From the NCBI RefSeq assembly GCF_002355635.1, contig NZ_AP017558.1, positions 2,232,001 through 2,296,000 on the forward strand: a DNA stretch of 64,000 nucleotides. The letters run 5' to 3'. The position numbers and the translations under genes are program-made. Below are positions 34,771 through 40,958 of this stretch, piece after piece (the first letter of the stretch is position 1; each line of letters opens with the position of its first letter). The notes under the pieces are model-generated. The model saw only the letters and a program-made list of their open reading frames with translations, was not told the origin of the DNA and made no database searches. Source of the stretch: Halopenitus persicus. GTDB lineage: Archaea > Halobacteriota > Halobacteria > Halobacteriales > Haloferacaceae.

Positions 34771-35250
34771 CTACAGAAGGTGGAGATTCAGCAGCCGGTA
34801 GAGCCCGGTGAGCCACGCGAGGATCCACAGGATCGTGTATCCGAACACGCCGACTCGGAGCCGAGTTCGCCAGTGGCTCATGTCCTCGTGCAGCTCGTCG
34901 ATGTCGACGTCCTGGTCGGGGTCCCGATAGAGATCGGCGTTTCGCTTCGCGCGGAGGATATGAACGATGCCGGTGAGCGCGAAGGTCAACAGCGCGTACG
35001 CCTGGACGCCGAAGAAGGCATGCACGGCCGCAGTCCCGGACAACTGGTCGAACAGCCGCGGGATCATCCAGCCGACCATCGGGACCGTCGTCAACACGAG
35101 CCCGACCCCGACGAACTTCAGGTGGTAGACGAGGAGGTCCCACGTGACGACCTCGGCGTCGATCATCACCCACGCCCCGTACAGGAAACACGGGAGACTC
35201 GCCGTGACCGTGACGGCGACGGCGACCGCCACGATCGACTCCTCGACCAT
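34771..35250 (-). CDS. Four-helix membrane protein beside the cytochrome b locus
   Basis: This 159-residue protein starts at the ATG at 35250. It has four helices (about residues 5-28, 45-64, 78-96 and 132-152) and a charged loop (RAKRNADLYRDPDQDVDIDE) between helices 3 and 4. It contains several histidines next to helices (YHLKFVG, VHAFFG, GIVHILR), so heme or quinone binding is possible. It is divergent from the cytochrome b/halocyanin operon. Its place next to that operon suggests a related respiratory function. I do not recognise a characterised family. Confidence 0.75.
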   Translation of the reverse strand: MVEESIVAVAVAVTVTASLPCFLYGAWVMIDAEVVTWDLLVYHLKFVGVGLVLTTVPMVGWMIPRLFDQLSGTAAVHAFFGVQAYALLTFALTGIVHILRAKRNADLYRDPDQDVDIDELHEDMSHWRTRLRVGVFGYTILWILAWLTGLYRLLNLHLL

Positions 35251-35401
35251 ACCGGCGGTTCGACCCACGACGCGTAAAGGCTCCCGATCCGCGGCCGGCG
35301 AGCGTTCGGCGACTACAGCTCGTGGTCGCACTCGGCGAACGGGGTCGTGGTCGCACCCGGGACGAAAACGGTAACATCCCTGGCGACCGTACCGATCGAC
35401 G

Positions 35402-36268
35402 ATGACGGAGCCTGCCGGTCCGGTCGACAGGGGAAGCGACGGCTCGCCGGCGGACCCCGAGACGCAAACGGACGTCGAGACCCTCCGCGAGGAGGTCGAG
35501 CGGAAGTACGACTTCGACAACTTCGGGCCGGCGGACATGGCGAAGATGACCGTCGAGGAGTGGGAGGCCGCCTTCGATCCCGAGACGTGGATAACGGGGA
35601 CGGAGCTGCTCGACCGCGTCGAGCGGGAACTGAAGAACCGGATCGCGAGTCGCGACGTCTTCGCGACCTTCGAGCGGGAGCGGCTGGACGGGGTCGCTAG
35701 CCTGGTCGTGTACTCCGATGAGGGGTACGCCGTCGTCTCCGAGTCCGGCGACGTGCGGGGGCAGGGAACGGTGCTGCGCGACGTCGAGCCGATCGTCGCG
35801 CTCTGCTCGATGGAGGCCTACGACGTTCCCGAACCGCCGGAGAACTGGGCGCTTCCCGATCCCGATGACGTCACCGAGGGAACGAACGAGATCGGGAACC
35901 TGATGATGCAGATCGTCGCGGGCATCCAGCTGATCGCCGGCGCCGCCCTGTTCGGCGCGTGGATCTTCGCCGGCGTCGAGACGCTGGTTGCGCCCGCGAT
36001 GGGGATCCTCTTCCTGCTCGGCGGACTGTTTTTCTTCTCGACGGTCGCCAACGCCCGGCTCTCGGACCGCTTCCGGTCGGCCGAATACCGGGACCGGCTC
36101 CGCGCGCTCCGGACGGCACGCGAGCGGTCCGACGTGCCCCCGGCCGCGGGTGAGACGCCTGGCGGGAACGAGGCGTCTTCCGCGGAGAACGATGCACCAT
36201 CGAACGACGCCGATCCGGACACGATCGGCGCGGACGACGGACCGACGGACCGCGGCGAGAACGCCTGA
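35402..36268 (+). CDS. Membrane protein heading the cytochrome b/halocyanin operon
   Basis: This 288-residue protein has a soluble N-terminal half of about 155 residues (KYDFDNFGPADMAKMTVEEW and a beta-rich SLVVYSDEGYAVVSESGDV). Two helices follow at about residues 180-200 and 203-222, then a disordered acidic tail. It has no recognisable redox motif. It is the first gene of a plus-strand series ending at 39966. Either a structural or an assembly role in the bc complex is possible; only the location supports this. Confidence 0.75.
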   Translation: MTEPAGPVDRGSDGSPADPETQTDVETLREEVERKYDFDNFGPADMAKMTVEEWEAAFDPETWITGTELLDRVERELKNRIASRDVFATFERERLDGVASLVVYSDEGYAVVSESGDVRGQGTVLRDVEPIVALCSMEAYDVPEPPENWALPDPDDVTEGTNEIGNLMMQIVAGIQLIAGAALFGAWIFAGVETLVAPAMGILFLLGGLFFFSTVANARLSDRFRSAEYRDRLRALRTARERSDVPPAAGETPGGNEASSAENDAPSNDADPDTIGADDGPTDRGENA

Positions 36269-36346
36269 TGCTACCGCGATCGCCGAGTCCAGCCGATCGA
36301 CGATAGTCGGTGGGTTTAAGCGCGCGCCGATCCGATTCGGATCCGT

Positions 36347-36976
36347 ATGAAACGGCGGGAGTTTATGCGTACGGCCGGCGGGTCAGCGGCCGCGGTCGCC
36401 GCCACGAGCGCGGCGGCCGGCACGGCCGCGGCCCAGGAGGTGCGACCCGTGTGGCCCTCGGCGGTGGAGGGAAACGTGAACAGCTACACGGACGCCCGCG
36501 GACAGGACGAGGTAACGATCTCGGTGGGCGCGGGCGACGGCCTCGCGTTCGACCCGACGAAGGTGTGGGTCGACCCCGGCACGACCATCGTCTGGGAGTG
36601 GACGGGTAACGGCGGCGACCACAACGTCCACGCGGTCGAGGGCCCCGCCTCCTTCGAGAGCCAGATCACCGGCGAAGAGGGCTTCACCTTCGAGTACGAG
36701 ACCTCCGAGGAGGACGCCGGCATCACCCACTACCAGTGTGACCCCCACGCACAGGTCGGCATGCACGGCGGCATCGCCGTCGGCGAGAACATCGAGACCG
36801 AGGAGGTCGGCGGTGCCAACACGGGCTGGCCGGAGAACGTCCACGACATCGGCGTACCGCTGCACGCCCACTGGGTCGGGCTGATCGTCGCCGTCGCGAT
36901 CACGTTGACGTGCATCTTCACGTTCTACGTGCTCAAATACGGCGAATCCGCACACACGGGACACGGTGACCGATAA
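36347..36976 (+). CDS. Halocyanin, membrane-anchored blue copper protein
   Basis: This 209-residue protein has a twin-arginine signal, RREFMRTAGG (residues 3-12), followed by an alanine-rich stretch and an AAAQ cleavage region. A plastocyanin-like domain follows with the four copper ligands H92 (GGDHNVHAV), C131 and H134 (YQCDPH), and M139 (VGMHGG). Unlike many halocyanins, which carry an N-terminal lipobox, it ends with a transmembrane helix (VGLIVAVAITLTCIFTFYVL). The copper domain would face outside. It overlaps the next gene by one base. It probably carries electrons to or from the cytochrome b complex. Confidence 0.93.
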   Translation: MKRREFMRTAGGSAAAVAATSAAAGTAAAQEVRPVWPSAVEGNVNSYTDARGQDEVTISVGAGDGLAFDPTKVWVDPGTTIVWEWTGNGGDHNVHAVEGPASFESQITGEEGFTFEYETSEEDAGITHYQCDPHAQVGMHGGIAVGENIETEEVGGANTGWPENVHDIGVPLHAHWVGLIVAVAITLTCIFTFYVLKYGESAHTGHGDR

Positions 36977-37368
36977 TGAGTTCGGGTGAATCCTCCTACG
37001 GCGACATTCATCGGTACGAACCGGCACGCGAGAGTACGGCGGCCGCGATCGCGATCGTCCTGTTGACGATCATCGAGGTCGTGTTCGTGTTCCTGTTCGT
37101 CTACGGCCTGATGTTCGGCTGGGCGACGACCGAGAACGGGAATATGTTCCTCGGCGGGCTGCTCGCGCTGGTGTTCATCGATCTCGCGTTCATCCTCGCG
37201 CTGTATCGAAAGGAGTTCCTCCCGGACGTGATGGTCGTCAAAAAGCGGCGGCGCAAGTGGGAGGACCTCTACGTTCGTGAGGAGGACGTCGAGGGCGAAT
37301 CCCTCACGGACCCCGAAGACACCTGGGAGACGGTGAAACGCGCCGTCTACCCGTACTACAAACGGTGA
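36976..37368 (+). CDS. Small two-helix membrane protein of the bc operon
   Basis: This 130-residue protein has two helices (about residues 22-48 and 58-76) followed by a basic segment (VVKKRRRKWEDLY) and an acidic tail ending YYKR. Its start overlaps the halocyanin stop by one base, and cytochrome b follows 7 bp later, so it is tightly embedded in the operon. It has no cysteine or histidine cluster, so it is not a Rieske protein despite its position. A structural subunit of the complex is inferred. Confidence 0.8.
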   Translation: MSSGESSYGDIHRYEPARESTAAAIAIVLLTIIEVVFVFLFVYGLMFGWATTENGNMFLGGLLALVFIDLAFILALYRKEFLPDVMVVKKRRRKWEDLYVREEDVEGESLTDPEDTWETVKRAVYPYYKR

Positions 37369-37375
37369 CAAACCA

Positions 37376-38185
37376 ATGAGCCTCGAAAAGAAAGACGAAT
37401 TCGACCACGACGCCTGGCTCAAACGGAAGGACCTGACAGCCGTCGAGACGGCCTTCCTAACCACGCTTATCTGGATGGACAAACGGCTCCGAATCGTCGA
37501 CTATCTGGAGCTGCTGGAGACGCTGTACTACCGGATCAACCTCCAGATGCCCAAGAGCCACACCGAACAGTACGACCTCGACAACAAGTTCTGGTATTGG
37601 TATCCCCTCTACTCGCTGGGGTCGCTGTCGATCATCGCGTACCTCGTCGCGGCGGTCTCCGGCGCGCTGCTGGGCTTTTATTATTCACCCTCGACTGCCG
37701 GCGCCGCAGCGGCCGGCGATCCGACCGCCGCCTGGTTGTCGATCGAGATGATCATCAAGGACATCCAGTTCGGATTCATGCTGCGGTCGATCCACCGCTG
37801 GGCTGCGCAGTTCATGGTGGCGGCGGTGTTCCTCCATATGTTGCGCGTCTACTTCACCGGCGCCTACAAAGAGCCCCGCGAGGGCAACTGGATCCTGGGC
37901 GTCATCCTCATCCTGTTGACGCTGCTGTTCGGATACTCCGGCTACGTGCTGCCGTGGAAGCAGCTGTCCTTCTGGGCCGCACAGATCGGCGTCGAGATGG
38001 CGCTCGCAACCCCGATCGTGGGTGAGTGGGCGGCACAGCTCCTGTTCGGCGGGTTCACTCTCGGACAGGCGACGCTCGTACGGATGTACATTATGCACGT
38101 GTTCCTGTTGCCCTTCGTCGTGACGGCGCTCATCGCGCTACACGTCGGCATCGTGTGGGTACAGGGCATCGCGGAGCCACACTAG
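37376..38185 (+). CDS. petB: Cytochrome b N-terminal (b6-like) subunit
   Basis: This 269-residue protein has two pairs of heme-ligand histidines: H140/H154 in SIHRWAAQFMVAAVFLH and H241/H256 in MHVFLLPFVVTALIALH. The spacings of 14 and 15 positions match the b6 type. GYSGYVLPWKQLSFWA is the quinone-site helix. A long N-terminal extension (about 75 residues) precedes the first helix. It would oxidise quinol and carry electrons through two b hemes. The remaining helices are in the next gene, so the protein is split as in b6f complexes. Confidence 0.93.
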   Translation: MSLEKKDEFDHDAWLKRKDLTAVETAFLTTLIWMDKRLRIVDYLELLETLYYRINLQMPKSHTEQYDLDNKFWYWYPLYSLGSLSIIAYLVAAVSGALLGFYYSPSTAGAAAAGDPTAAWLSIEMIIKDIQFGFMLRSIHRWAAQFMVAAVFLHMLRVYFTGAYKEPREGNWILGVILILLTLLFGYSGYVLPWKQLSFWAAQIGVEMALATPIVGEWAAQLLFGGFTLGQATLVRMYIMHVFLLPFVVTALIALHVGIVWVQGIAEPH

Positions 38186-38193
38186 TCCGGACA

Positions 38194-39015
38194 ATGACCG
38201 ACCAGCACACACCCACCGACGCGACCGGCACCGACGAACGGGAACCGCTGACGGACGGCGGGACCGACGACGAACCACGAACCGACGGCGGCCCGCCGGC
38301 GACGATCCCGCCGGACGACGAGACGCCGACCTGGAGCGAGCGGAAGGAGCGAAGCCAGGGACTCTCGCGACTGACCTACGAGTACTTCGAGCGGGCACGT
38401 CGTGAGGACCAGGACCTCCGGCAGGAGTCGACCTACGTCGAGCGCGACGTGCTCGGCTTCCCCGCCTGGCCCCACGAAACGATCCGCAACCTGGCGATCA
38501 CGAGCTTCTTCGTCGGGATCATCATCCTCGTCTCGGCGACGATCCCGATGTACTTCGAGAACCCGGCGAACGCAAGCTCGACGCCGTCGATCATCCTGCC
38601 GGACTGGTATCTCTACTGGTCGTTCGGCCTGCTGAAGCTCAACCCGATCAATCCCGGCCTGGCCGTCCTGGACGGCGAGCTCGTGTTCTCCCACGAGTTC
38701 TTCGGCGTGCTCGCCCACGGACTCATCATCGGCGTCATCGCCCTGGTGCCGTTTCTCAACAAGGGGAACGCGCGCCGGCCGGTCGAGCAGCCGTTCTGGT
38801 CGGCGGTCGGCGTGATGGGCGCGCTCCTGTCGGTCTCGCTCGCCGCGCTGGCGATCCAGAACTTCTTCCCGATCGAGCTGGAGCTGCTGTTCACCCTCGT
38901 GTTCGTCCTGCCGTTCCTCGCCGGAGTGGTCACCTACGCCGTGTTGAAGACGATGCGGGAAGGATACATGTACGACCTGAACAAGCGGTACTACCGGCTT
39001 CGACCACCGCAGTGA
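38194..39015 (+). CDS. petD: Cytochrome b C-terminal (subunit IV-like) protein
   Basis: This 273-residue protein starts at the ATG at 38194. An acidic disordered N-terminus of about 90 residues is followed by three or more helices. The quinol-oxidation motif is present as P136-D137-W138-Y139 (LPDWYLYWSF), the PEWY equivalent. It begins 8 bp after the petB stop. With PetB it completes the eight-helix cytochrome b module in the cytoplasmic membrane. Confidence 0.92.
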   Translation: MTDQHTPTDATGTDEREPLTDGGTDDEPRTDGGPPATIPPDDETPTWSERKERSQGLSRLTYEYFERARREDQDLRQESTYVERDVLGFPAWPHETIRNLAITSFFVGIIILVSATIPMYFENPANASSTPSIILPDWYLYWSFGLLKLNPINPGLAVLDGELVFSHEFFGVLAHGLIIGVIALVPFLNKGNARRPVEQPFWSAVGVMGALLSVSLAALAIQNFFPIELELLFTLVFVLPFLAGVVTYAVLKTMREGYMYDLNKRYYRLRPPQ

Positions 39016-39068
39016 CCGCACTGCGGGCGTGCTTCGCCACGACGGTCCGCCATATCGCCGGCGCACCG

Positions 39069-39164
39069 ATCGCCAACCGCCAACCCATCATCGCCAACCG
39101 CCAACCCATCATCGCCAACCGCCAACCCATCATCGCCAACCGCCAACCCATCATCGCCAACCGC
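39069..39164. repeat. 21-bp tandem array in the bc operon
   Basis: Four full copies of atcgccaaccgccaacccat plus one base start at 39069, 39090, 39111 and 39132, with a fifth partial copy to about 39164. It lies in the 206-bp gap between petD and the next membrane-protein gene. The unit has no stop codon in the plus frames. No dyad is evident. Confidence 0.92.
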
Positions 39165-39221
39165 TGGCCGTCGATTGCCGCGACGGGCGGCGATGAACCA
39201 CAGTGACACGATCGTTCACCG

Positions 39222-39692
39222 ATGTCCCAAACGGAATCCGACCACGACGACCGACGCCGATCGGACGGCGGGCAGACCGATACCGACCGGGACGTCGACG
39301 CGACCGGTGACCCCGTACCGAAGTCCGAACGCGAGACGGACGCCCAGTCCGAACCAACCGGACCGACGGAGGGGCCGGGCGGACGGGAGATCGTCGTTCC
39401 GTTGCGTCTGTATAAGACGGTGATCGTCTTCTCGACGCTCGTCGCGATCGTCGCGTTCGTCGGCGGGTTCGTCCTGATCGACGCCGCGACGCTGCAGGTG
39501 AGCCTGCTCCGGTCGGTGATCGCCGGCGTGCTCGCGAGTGCCGGGATCGCGCCGAGCGCGGACGTTCTCACGGCCCTGCTGGCGGTTGCCGGGCTCGCAT
39601 CGATCGTGTTCGGGTCGGCCGTCTACGTCTTCGGGACTCGGTTTCGGGCACAGGGAATGGGAAAGTCTCAAGAGGACTCCGACGAAGAATGA
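39222..39692 (+). CDS. Two-helix membrane protein of the bc operon
   Basis: This 156-residue protein has about 60 residues of acidic disordered N-terminus. Helices follow at about residues 64-90 (IVVPLRLYKTVIVFSTLVAI) and 115-137, with a short charged tail. No redox motif is visible. It ends 4 bp before the following small gene, so the pair is likely co-translated. I do not recognise a characterised family. Linkage to petB/petD suggests an accessory subunit. Confidence 0.75.
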   Translation: MSQTESDHDDRRRSDGGQTDTDRDVDATGDPVPKSERETDAQSEPTGPTEGPGGREIVVPLRLYKTVIVFSTLVAIVAFVGGFVLIDAATLQVSLLRSVIAGVLASAGIAPSADVLTALLAVAGLASIVFGSAVYVFGTRFRAQGMGKSQEDSDEE

Positions 39693-39696
39693 ATCA

Positions 39697-39966
39697 ATGG
39701 CCGACGAGTTCATCAAAGGACTGACCCTGTCGATGGTCGGTGCCCTCGGGTGGTTCATCTTCGCCGGCTGGTACCGAACCCCCGAGTACTACGCCATCGA
39801 ACAGCTGACCGCGGCGGCGCCCGAGCCGAATAACGTGTATCAGGCGATCGGTATCTTCGCCGGCGACGTGTCCCTGTGGCTGATGCTCCTCGGCGCGTTG
39901 GTATACTGGGTCGTCATCCCAACCCTGCGCGAGGCTCGCGGCAGCATTACCGAATCGCCGAACTGA
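39697..39966 (+). CDS. Small two-helix membrane protein of the bc operon
   Basis: This 89-residue protein starts at the ATG at 39697 (MADEFIKGLTLSMVGALGWF). Helices lie at about residues 9-25 and 53-75. The loop between them is uncharged and proline-containing. It is the last gene of the plus-strand series. The function is unknown; an accessory subunit of the cytochrome b complex is inferred from the compact gene order. Confidence 0.75.
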   Translation: MADEFIKGLTLSMVGALGWFIFAGWYRTPEYYAIEQLTAAAPEPNNVYQAIGIFAGDVSLWLMLLGALVYWVVIPTLREARGSITESPN

Positions 39967-39998
39967 GTACCCGAAACCCCGGCGGTCGAACGCGGTCG

Positions 39999-40124
39999 GT
40001 CTCGTTCTTTCGTCCCGCATAGCCGGTCTCGTTCTTTCGTCCCGCATAGCCGGTCTCGTTCTTTCGTCCCGCATAGCCGGTCTCGTTCTTTCGTCCCGCA
40101 TAGCCGGTCTCGTTCTTTCGTCCC
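39999..40124. repeat. 27-bp tandem array after the bc operon
   Basis: Four full copies and one partial copy of a 27-bp unit (gtctcgttctttcgtcccgc and following) start at 39999, 40026, 40053, 40080 and 40107. They are nearly identical. The pyrimidine-rich ttcttt tract in each copy lies 30-150 bp after the last stop of the operon, so it could form a series of archaeal termination sites on the plus strand. Confidence 0.92.
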
Positions 40125-40355
40125 CGTTCGACGTCGGTACCTGCGGTGTGTTCTCCGCGAGTCGCTTCCCAACGACGACGTGTTCCCAGTGGGCTGCCGG
40201 CCGATCGCGGTGGCAGCGCGGCGGCGGGCCCGTCGAACGACGACCGATTCACTCCGGTCCGTGCAACGCGTACGCTACGTGCGCAGCGACCGTACCGACG
40301 CGGGGACTCCCGCCAATCGGGCGCGTCACTCGGCGTTGAACCCGTAACGGTCGGT

Positions 40356-40431
40356 CCGGACGAACGGATGCACGATCCGGACGAACGGATGCACGGCCCG
40401 GACGAACGGATGCACGATCCGGACGAACGGG
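40356..40431. repeat. 21-bp tandem array in a gene-free gap
   Basis: Three full copies of ccggacgaacggatgcacga plus one base start at 40356, 40377 and 40398, with a partial fourth from 40419. The gap 39967-40511 between convergent genes holds this array and the 27-bp one. Between them (about 40125-40355) I see no convincing gene or RNA. Confidence 0.9.
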
Positions 40432-40511
40432 CGACGGCAAGGTCACCGCACACGACCGAGCTGGGTCGGTGGGACGACCGAGCGGAGTCGATGCTGGTCC
40501 GATCGCCGCCG

Positions 40512-40958
40512 TCAGGCGAACAGCCCGGACCAGAACGTCGCGTCGAGCGCGACGAGGGAGTAATAGAGTCCGTAGATGACGACGATCGAGGAGGCCGCGA
40601 TGGAGCTCTTGGGCCGCTCGATCTCCAGCTCGTTTCGGGCCTCGACGTTTCGGGCCTCGAACTCGAAGACGTCGGCAAGCAGGACCGTCGCGGCAACCAC
40701 CGAGATGATAGCCCCGCCGGTCGGTTGGACGAGGGTGAACAGGAAGCTCATCAGCACGAGCCCGATCGTCGTGAAGACGTGCGGGAAATAGCGGTCGACG
40801 CTGTCGCCGTCGGCCGCCTGTTCGACGTGTTTGGCGTGGGCGCGGTGGCGCGTGGCGACGTTCGCGAGCGCCAACACGAGGATGGCGAACGGGAGCGTCG
40901 GTCCCACGACGGCGAGCCAGTCCAGGGGAACGAGGAACTGCAGTGGGTCCATATCCAT
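40512..40958 (-). CDS. Membrane protein convergent with the bc operon
   Basis: This 148-residue protein has four helices (about residues 8-34, 60-78, 79-97 and 122-140) and a short loop with a histidine-rich stretch, RHRAHAKHVEQAADG. Two in-frame ATGs two codons apart begin it. The promoter-proximal sequence contains a minus-strand TATA-like actctaatgag at about 40973-40983. The function is unknown. Nearness to the cytochrome b cluster again suggests a respiratory connection. Confidence 0.72.
   Translation of the reverse strand: MDMDPLQFLVPLDWLAVVGPTLPFAILVLALANVATRHRAHAKHVEQAADGDSVDRYFPHVFTTIGLVLMSFLFTLVQPTGGAIISVVAATVLLADVFEFEARNVEARNELEIERPKSSIAASSIVVIYGLYYSLVALDATFWSGLFA

Follow-up and report, generated by a model that had tools for sequence, protein, structure and literature searches.

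An operon at positions 34771-40958 of a 64,000-nucleotide stretch of Halopenitus persicus DNA (C1:2232001-2296000 of its genome, referred to below as the window) encodes cytochrome b and the copper protein halocyanin, but no Rieske iron-sulfur protein, raising the question of whether its bc-type complex works without one or whether the gene lies elsewhere. The gene content proposed by the initial annotation (petB- and petD-like genes, a halocyanin with a twin-arginine translocation (Tat) motif and its own C-terminal anchor, and small membrane proteins) was confirmed by Pfam and NCBIfam matches (Table 1). The absence of a Rieske gene from the operon was confirmed as well: none of its nine proteins matched a Rieske family in Pfam (expectation value, E, <= 0.01), and the 7 bases between the end of DUF7318 (37368) and the start of cytochrome b (37376) leave no room for a gene.

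The explanation favored here, with a probability of roughly 0.86, is that the operon encodes the membrane part of the haloarchaeal Rieske/cytochrome b complex (complex III), that its Rieske gene left the operon in an ancestor of the Haloferacaceae and encodes a circularly permuted protein, and that electrons would travel from menaquinol to halocyanin. Sequence comparison established the presence of this gene, the fact that gene and operon occur together in every genome sampled, the operonic position in other families and the permuted domain order; the structure and function of the distant Rieske protein are inferred.

A distant Rieske gene

The Pfam Rieske model (PF00355) detected five proteins in the own genome, of which one is a ring hydroxylase and the others are four small proteins with a Rieske domain. 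In the match tables of other haloarchaeal families, DUF7318 and cytochrome b were separated by a gap of about 1.1 kb, and in three loci that were opened this gap was occupied by a gene whose product, 288-381 residues long, carries a Tat motif together with the boxes CTHFCC and CxCHQS. A search of the own genome with one operonic Rieske protein of another family gave one clear match (C1:1309614-1310450; 56% identity over residues 3-283 of 288, E 1.5e-95), located 0.96 Mb from the operon and encoding a bc-type Rieske protein with the Tat motif RRRFVK and the boxes CTHFCC...CQCHQS. This supported the suggestion of the initial annotation that the Rieske protein is encoded elsewhere. The genome has a single cytochrome b.

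The distant Rieske protein scored 13.3 bits against PF00355, under the cut-off of 20.3, and this model matched 20 of 40 relatives at E <= 1. The NCBIfam models for Rieske proteins of bc complexes, TIGR01416 and NF050121, matched all 40 (best E for TIGR01416, 2.2e-12); the own-genome protein reached 40.5 bits with TIGR01416, under the equivalog cut-off of 97.4, and was also under the curated cut-off of NF050121. Because the Pfam model misses the real protein even in a genome-wide scan, the lack of a Rieske gene in the operon does not mean the lack of a Rieske protein, and PF00355 was rejected as a test of Rieske absence in this family.

Co-occurrence and genomic position in haloarchaea

Of 242 haloarchaeal genomes, 176 matched DUF7318 (175 above the Pfam cut-off) and 66 did not. 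A Rieske protein of the same type as the distant one was found at E 1.6e-73 or better in 175 of the 242 genomes; comparison of the sets revealed the same 175 genomes, all of which also had cytochrome b. The DUF7318 and Rieske searches gave one extra borderline match each (G236, G010), and seven genomes had a cytochrome b of weaker score only. Eight of the 175 genomes with DUF7318 and this Rieske protein showed no PF00355 match whatsoever.

These distributions bear on two alternatives. The first, also put forward in the initial annotation, is a complex without a Rieske protein, in which halocyanin takes the first quinol electron directly at the quinol oxidation (Qo) site. It agrees with an operon devoid of a Rieske gene, with the failure of the Pfam model to find a bc-type Rieske protein in the genome, and with a halocyanin that is operonic and membrane-anchored, but the genome does encode a near-full-length homologue of the operonic Rieske protein, as does every genome with DUF7318, including the eight without a PF00355 match. 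It was rejected once the distant gene had been found, and we consider it very improbable. The second alternative, that a soluble Rieske-type ferredoxin serves the complex, is less credible still: four small Rieske-domain proteins do exist beside the ring hydroxylase, but neither a Tat signal nor a C-x-H-x-x-C / C-x-C-H pair was seen in the four sequences, they would be cytoplasmic and on the wrong side for the Qo site, and PF00355 does not track the operon. These ferredoxins were rejected as partners on both sequence reading and distribution.

The position of the Rieske gene was compared in 133 of the 175 genomes, those among the matches listed in both searches; they comprise 79 of the 88 genomes of the window's own family (taken as Haloferacaceae from the named matches, among which a Halopenitus persicus Rieske protein was 99% identical) and 54 of the 87 from other families. 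Among these listed matches, the gene was within 2.5 kb of DUF7318 in all 54 genomes from other families, and far from it in all 79 Haloferacaceae genomes (at least 185 kb away or on another contig; 186 kb for the nearest on the same contig). Gene order in 28 fetched operon loci followed the same division: the Rieske gene was between DUF7318 and cytochrome b in 21 of 21 loci from other families and absent from 7 of 7 Haloferacaceae loci.

Rieske proteins were collected from 140 loci; the seven Haloferacaceae operon loci yielded none, as expected, and 133 sequences were obtained (125 distinct), several being one gene met through two collections. A tree was built from 72 of the 133 (many forks were weak, and extra Haloferacaceae copies were omitted except L166). 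Two named sequences grouped with 20 of the 21 Haloferacaceae sequences in a single clade (support 100/99), and the one Haloferacaceae sequence outside it was a second copy in one genome. For this family, the most economical history is a single relocation, or a duplication after which the operonic copy was lost. Counting against the favored explanation, the tree of all families required seven changes of the operon/remote label, because lineages outside the Haloferacaceae carry additional remote copies.

Among the matches listed, extra copies off the operon were present in 10 genomes from other families and 3 Haloferacaceae genomes, and second copies were seen at loci L148, L150, L151, L153, L155, L157, L159, L160, L162, L164, L165 and L166. 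Six plasmid records matched this type of Rieske protein, five of them bearing a Rieske product name.

Apparent circular permutation of the Rieske protein

Canonical Rieske proteins are ordered as base strands, box 1, box 2, proline (Pro) loop (GPAP...) and last strands. The order base, box 1, box 2, Pro loop was seen in two relatives used for comparison: L281, which represents a further type of bc Rieske protein in haloarchaea (box 1 and box 2 followed by GPAPRALPQLPI; ending in ...GGPAPRALPQLPITLSSDGFL...), and L282, whose operon lies at about 2437-6067 of contig 117 in genome G436, that of another archaeon in this phylum. The Pro-loop block GPAPRGMPQIPI, which follows box 2 in canonical Rieske proteins, was located 165-186 residues ahead of box 1 in the haloarchaeal protein encoded in or away from the operon. 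All 133 collected sequences had the boxes CTHxxC...CxCHxS with GP[AP] ahead of box 1, GP[AP] at residues 60-64, and the Tat motif RR[RQ]F[VI]K, export and anchoring being predicted from sequence. The distance from GP[AP] to box 1 was 167-170 residues in 89 of them, and a strict pattern for the order Pro-loop block, box 1, box 2 was matched by 128. No second GPA[PAK]R motif was found among the 133; the tail after box 2 measured 19-21 residues in 113 and carried a PRP-like stretch. The sequence order looks permuted in all 133 haloarchaeal copies examined.

Profile alignments pointed in the same direction. The best match in the PDB for a profile of 40 haloarchaeal Rieske proteins was 7q21_A, a bc1 Rieske chain (whole-sequence E 5.5e-4), aligned as two blocks in opposite order: profile residues 221-265 with chain residues 326-363, and 59-81 with 368-390. 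In hhalign comparisons with 30 canonical haloarchaeal Rieske proteins, residues 56-82 aligned to columns 153-179 (E 2.9e-7) and residues 146-267 to columns 68-153 (E 2.4e-5), two swapped blocks abutting at template column 153; doubling the canonical template produced a single collinear path from residue 56 to 267 (E 2.4e-9). Rotation of the haloarchaeal profile behind its membrane segment increased the score from 67 to 132-139 against L282 (cuts at residues 121-150) and from 53 to 79 against the canonical set, whereas the control, the canonical set against L282, scored 62 unrotated and at most 59.5 rotated. The maximum score with 30 column-shuffled templates was 25.5, and the match of the Pro-loop block vanished when the block was reversed. 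With the block moved, the profile aligned to L282 residues 16 to 236 of 238 (E 2.5e-20), the block match running on to residue 236 (DWYVYCGV vs. EWFQYCGM). Residues 152-180 (approximately) of a single canonical query matched 18 rows among the matches listed, of which 16 fell within permuted genes by coordinates and two could not be placed.

Rearrangement of single sequences gave mixed results, useful but not decisive. Against NF050121, two swapped stretches merged into a single uninterrupted match for two of the three proteins, and reversed-block controls dropped to 17.0, 11.2 and 12.3 bits. TIGR01416 scores shifted by at most 1.3 bits; this model cannot discriminate, because even in the canonical L282 its match does not reach the Pro loop. 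Two b6f models shifted by at most 3.4 bits, and the control of protein 9 exceeded its rearranged form.

An AlphaFold2 model of the Rieske protein (40 sequences) had a mean predicted local distance difference test (pLDDT) score of 82.4 and a predicted template modeling (pTM) score of 0.78; residues 51-100 averaged 84-98 per ten-residue block, and the Pro-loop block 85-98. When VIA-align was applied to Foldseek candidates, 16 of 977 chains reached Z >= 2, all from cytochrome bc complexes, and several were Rieske chains also named in the profile searches of solved structures. This pattern would fit a putative Rieske fold in which an aligner that keeps to chain order cannot place the moved block.

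Several results weigh against a permutation. The VIA-align Z values were low (2.7-4.3) and the alignments began at model residue 97 or later; Foldseek with the model returned nothing at E <= 0.001 and no Rieske protein among the 50 matches listed, which fits a permutation, as Foldseek follows chain order, but would also be given by a wrong model. The two blocks on 7q21_A were weak singly (independent E-values of 9.1 and 0.25). The rotation optimum was broad (score above 117 for cuts 85 to 205), and doubling L282 increased the best score from 67 to 96, yet the printed alignment spanned residues 151-272 only. NF050121 scores were not raised by rearrangement (32.7 to 31.6, 30.1 to 27.2 and 15.3 to 15.8 bits), and L184 was barely apart from its control (15.3 and 15.8 vs. 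12.3). The GPAP...PQIPI...DG block also gave a weak match to DnaK, so that the block similarity could in part be a common strand-turn pattern. The hhalign E-values hold for single pairs and carry no calibration against a database search; it is the controls that support the argument for a permutation.

The DnaK match would suit a distant Rieske protein that is not permuted: its chain would simply end soon after box 2, and the GPAPRGMPQIPI block near its N-terminus would be a strand-turn motif that arose by chance or convergence; the short tail after box 2, with its PRP-like stretch, could then act as the proline loop. This alternative does not account for swapped and abutting blocks, for a gain on doubling or rotation that was not seen in the controls, for a block match extending almost to the end of L282, or for a GP[AP] fixed near residue 60 in every sequence with no second copy of the motif, and we regard it as improbable. 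In the permuted chain, about 16-20 residues would separate the Pro loop from the point ahead of it where the tether enters the head, a distance of about 110 residues in the canonical L281 (judged by eye from the end of the hydrophobic segment), so that the head movement in catalysis is probably unlike that of classical complexes.

Redox subunits and proposed electron route

The heme ligands of cytochrome b were H140/H154 (spacing 14) and H241/H256 (spacing 15), conserved at 97% or more among 45 proteins (44 distinct). PetB of the window has a conserved N-terminal extension and no cysteine, and so no residue for a b6f-type covalent heme ci. The Qo motif PDWY was present in 45 of 45 PetD-like proteins; a literature search for PEWY together with PDWY gave no paper.

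Halocyanin scored 95.0 bits against TIGR03102 (cut-off 93.8), and its copper ligands H92, C131, H134 and M139 were conserved at 97% or more among 44 proteins. The c-type heme motif CxxCH was absent from all ten operon and Rieske protein sets, the rest of the genome not being searched for a c-type partner; because of this absence, halocyanin would occupy the place of the c-type cytochrome (c1 or f). The anchors of halocyanin and of the cytochrome c encoded in the L282 operon are alike in a way that is suggestive only (score 29 vs. at most 18 in 25 shuffles, over just 25 columns). Eight blue-copper (PF00127) matches were found in contig C1 of the own genome; with so many candidates, this count alone does not single out a partner for the operonic halocyanin.

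The available parts of PMC3062577 describe c-type subunits as recruited repeatedly and halocyanin as feeding the terminal oxidase in Natronomonas, and those of PMC4429474 treat the unidentified c-type partner of haloarchaeal bc complexes as the "haloarchaea paradox". Because recruited c-type subunits vary by lineage (PMC3062577), a missing c-type partner would weaken the names "bc1" and "b6f" but not the Rieske/cytochrome b core. The view of the initial annotation that this is a variant bc complex was upheld on other grounds than those given there: a halocyanin in the place of cytochrome c1/f and a Rieske protein that looks circularly permuted.

Judging from the known biochemistry of bc complexes, menaquinol would be oxidized at the Qo site (PDWY), one electron passing to hemes bL and bH, while the second would reduce the [2Fe-2S] cluster in the exported (Tat) head of the Rieske protein; from this cluster, it would pass to the membrane-anchored halocyanin, replacing cytochrome c1/f, and then to the terminal oxidase. 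The Rieske protein would be supplied from the gene relocated out of the operon in the Haloferacaceae ancestor, now 0.96 Mb away.

DUF7318 was the sole operon protein touching an NCBIfam Rieske model, through its N-terminal membrane part and not through a cluster domain. It is homologous to its L282 counterpart (hhalign score 64 vs. at most 17 in 25 shuffles), 19 of 20 members matched the model NF050121 of the actinobacterial Rieske subunit QcrA (the window protein at positions 20-100), and its best match among solved structures was a bc1 Rieske subunit, with a weak E of 0.078. DUF7318 may tentatively be considered a free-standing counterpart of the QcrA N-terminal hairpin. In the operons read from other families, DUF7318 directly precedes the Rieske gene, as if QcrA fused the two.

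The balance leans towards a complex III built on a circularly permuted Rieske protein (cut between box 2 and the Pro loop, with the old C-terminus joined to the base domain and the tether beside the Pro loop), with the c-type cytochrome swapped for a halocyanin on a similar C-terminal anchor, a free-standing DUF7318 hairpin, and a geometry of electron hand-over unlike that of bc1 and b6f.

Gene organization of the operon region

Table 1. Genes and intergenic gap of the cytochrome b operon region (positions in the window).
Feature	Position	Strand	Evidence and remarks
DUF7321 membrane protein	34771..35250	(-), divergent to operon	Pfam PF24007 E 8e-78; conserved operon neighbor
DUF7319	35402..36268	+	Pfam PF24003 E 4e-93; soluble-looking N-terminal domain, then membrane hairpin (topology by eye); operon order
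Halocyanin	36347..36976	+	PF00127; TIGR03102; Tat motif RREF, type-1 copper domain, C-terminal membrane anchor
DUF7318 small membrane protein	36976..37368	+	PF24002 E 2e-72; weak likeness to N-terminal part of actinobacterial QcrA
7-base gap	37369..37375	+	Site of Rieske gene in other haloarchaeal families
Cytochrome b, PetB/b6-like	37376..38185	+	PF00033 E 1e-44
PetD-like, cytochrome b C-terminal part (Cytochrom_B_C)	38194..39015	+	PF00032 E 3e-9; Qo motif PDWY
DUF7315 small membrane protein	39222..39692	+	PF23997 E 9e-44
DUF7314 small membrane protein	39697..39966	+	PF23996 E 4e-35
DUF7313 membrane protein	40512..40958	(-), convergent to operon	PF23995 E 4e-56

DUF7321 adjoined DUF7319 in 27 of the 28 operon loci fetched. 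Two of its histidines, H43 and H77, were kept at 97% or more among 40 proteins (membrane position judged by eye), and because of their conservation DUF7321 might bind heme. Three intergenic tandem arrays were located around the 3' half of the operon: 39069-39164 (21 bp x 4.6) and 39997-40124 (27 bp x 4.7), both 100% matching, and 40355-40430 (21 bp x 3.6, 92%). The perfect copies suggest recent expansion.

Comparison with known complexes

The petABD complex of Haloferax volcanii is presumably the second haloarchaeal Rieske/cytochrome b complex of Baymann et al. 2012. It shares with the complex described here a split cytochrome b and a petA gene apart from petBD, as implied by the locus tags (petA HVO_2620, petB HVO_0842, petD HVO_0841; PMC8305020). 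The same paper, in its available parts, puts the haloarchaea without complex III at about one third, and is silent there on circular permutation, on a family-wide relocation and on DUF7318 and the other small proteins. The petA/petBD split was therefore already implicit in print for Haloferax, whereas no report of a circularly permuted Rieske protein was found among the titles and abstract openings returned by the literature search.

Cytochrome b6f is likewise split into PetB- and PetD-like chains, and b6 has the same heme ligand spacing of 14/15. The operon in the window differs from b6f in a PetB without the cysteine for heme ci, the lack of cytochrome f, the PetB N-terminal extension and the motif PDWY. 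With respect to the actinobacterial bcc complex (QcrABC), the Corynebacterium bc1 Rieske subunit was the best solved match of the Rieske profile, and DUF7318 resembles the N-terminal part of QcrA; unlike the haloarchaeal Rieske protein, QcrA has the canonical order in one chain. Electrons exit from the actinobacterial complex via a diheme cytochrome c, not a copper protein.

The L281 type, which shares the membrane anchor and the bc type with the distant Rieske protein and differs by its canonical order, adjoins cytochrome b in L281, had strong matches in 48 of 194 genomes (E < 1e-30) and gave at best a match of E 6.2e-4, not a strong one, in the own genome. We take it to be NarB-like and connected with nitrate reduction. 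The L282 operon runs C-anchored cytochrome c, DUF7318-like protein, Rieske, cytochrome b (about 50% identity) and PetD-like protein. The order of its last four genes is shared with the haloarchaeal operon, and the differences lie in the canonical Rieske order, the cytochrome c in place of halocyanin, and a PetD-like protein that carries an additional ferredoxin-like part rich in cysteine. The L282 Rieske protein had no PDB match at E 0.01, no plasmid match and none in the other 57 genomes of its class, so that this contig could represent a rare acquisition or a binning error.

Biological meaning

Textbook accounts of bc1 and b6f complexes include a Rieske head that swings on its tether. A natural permutation, if true, would keep the boxes and move the tether, making the domain-movement model testable in a living system; it would also explain why the Pfam domain model overlooks the Rieske subunit in haloarchaeal genomes, a warning that a bc complex should not be called Rieske-less from a Pfam scan. 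For the haloarchaea, the paradox set out in the available parts of PMC4429474 would be narrowed, as the operon offers a copper protein in the place of cytochrome c.

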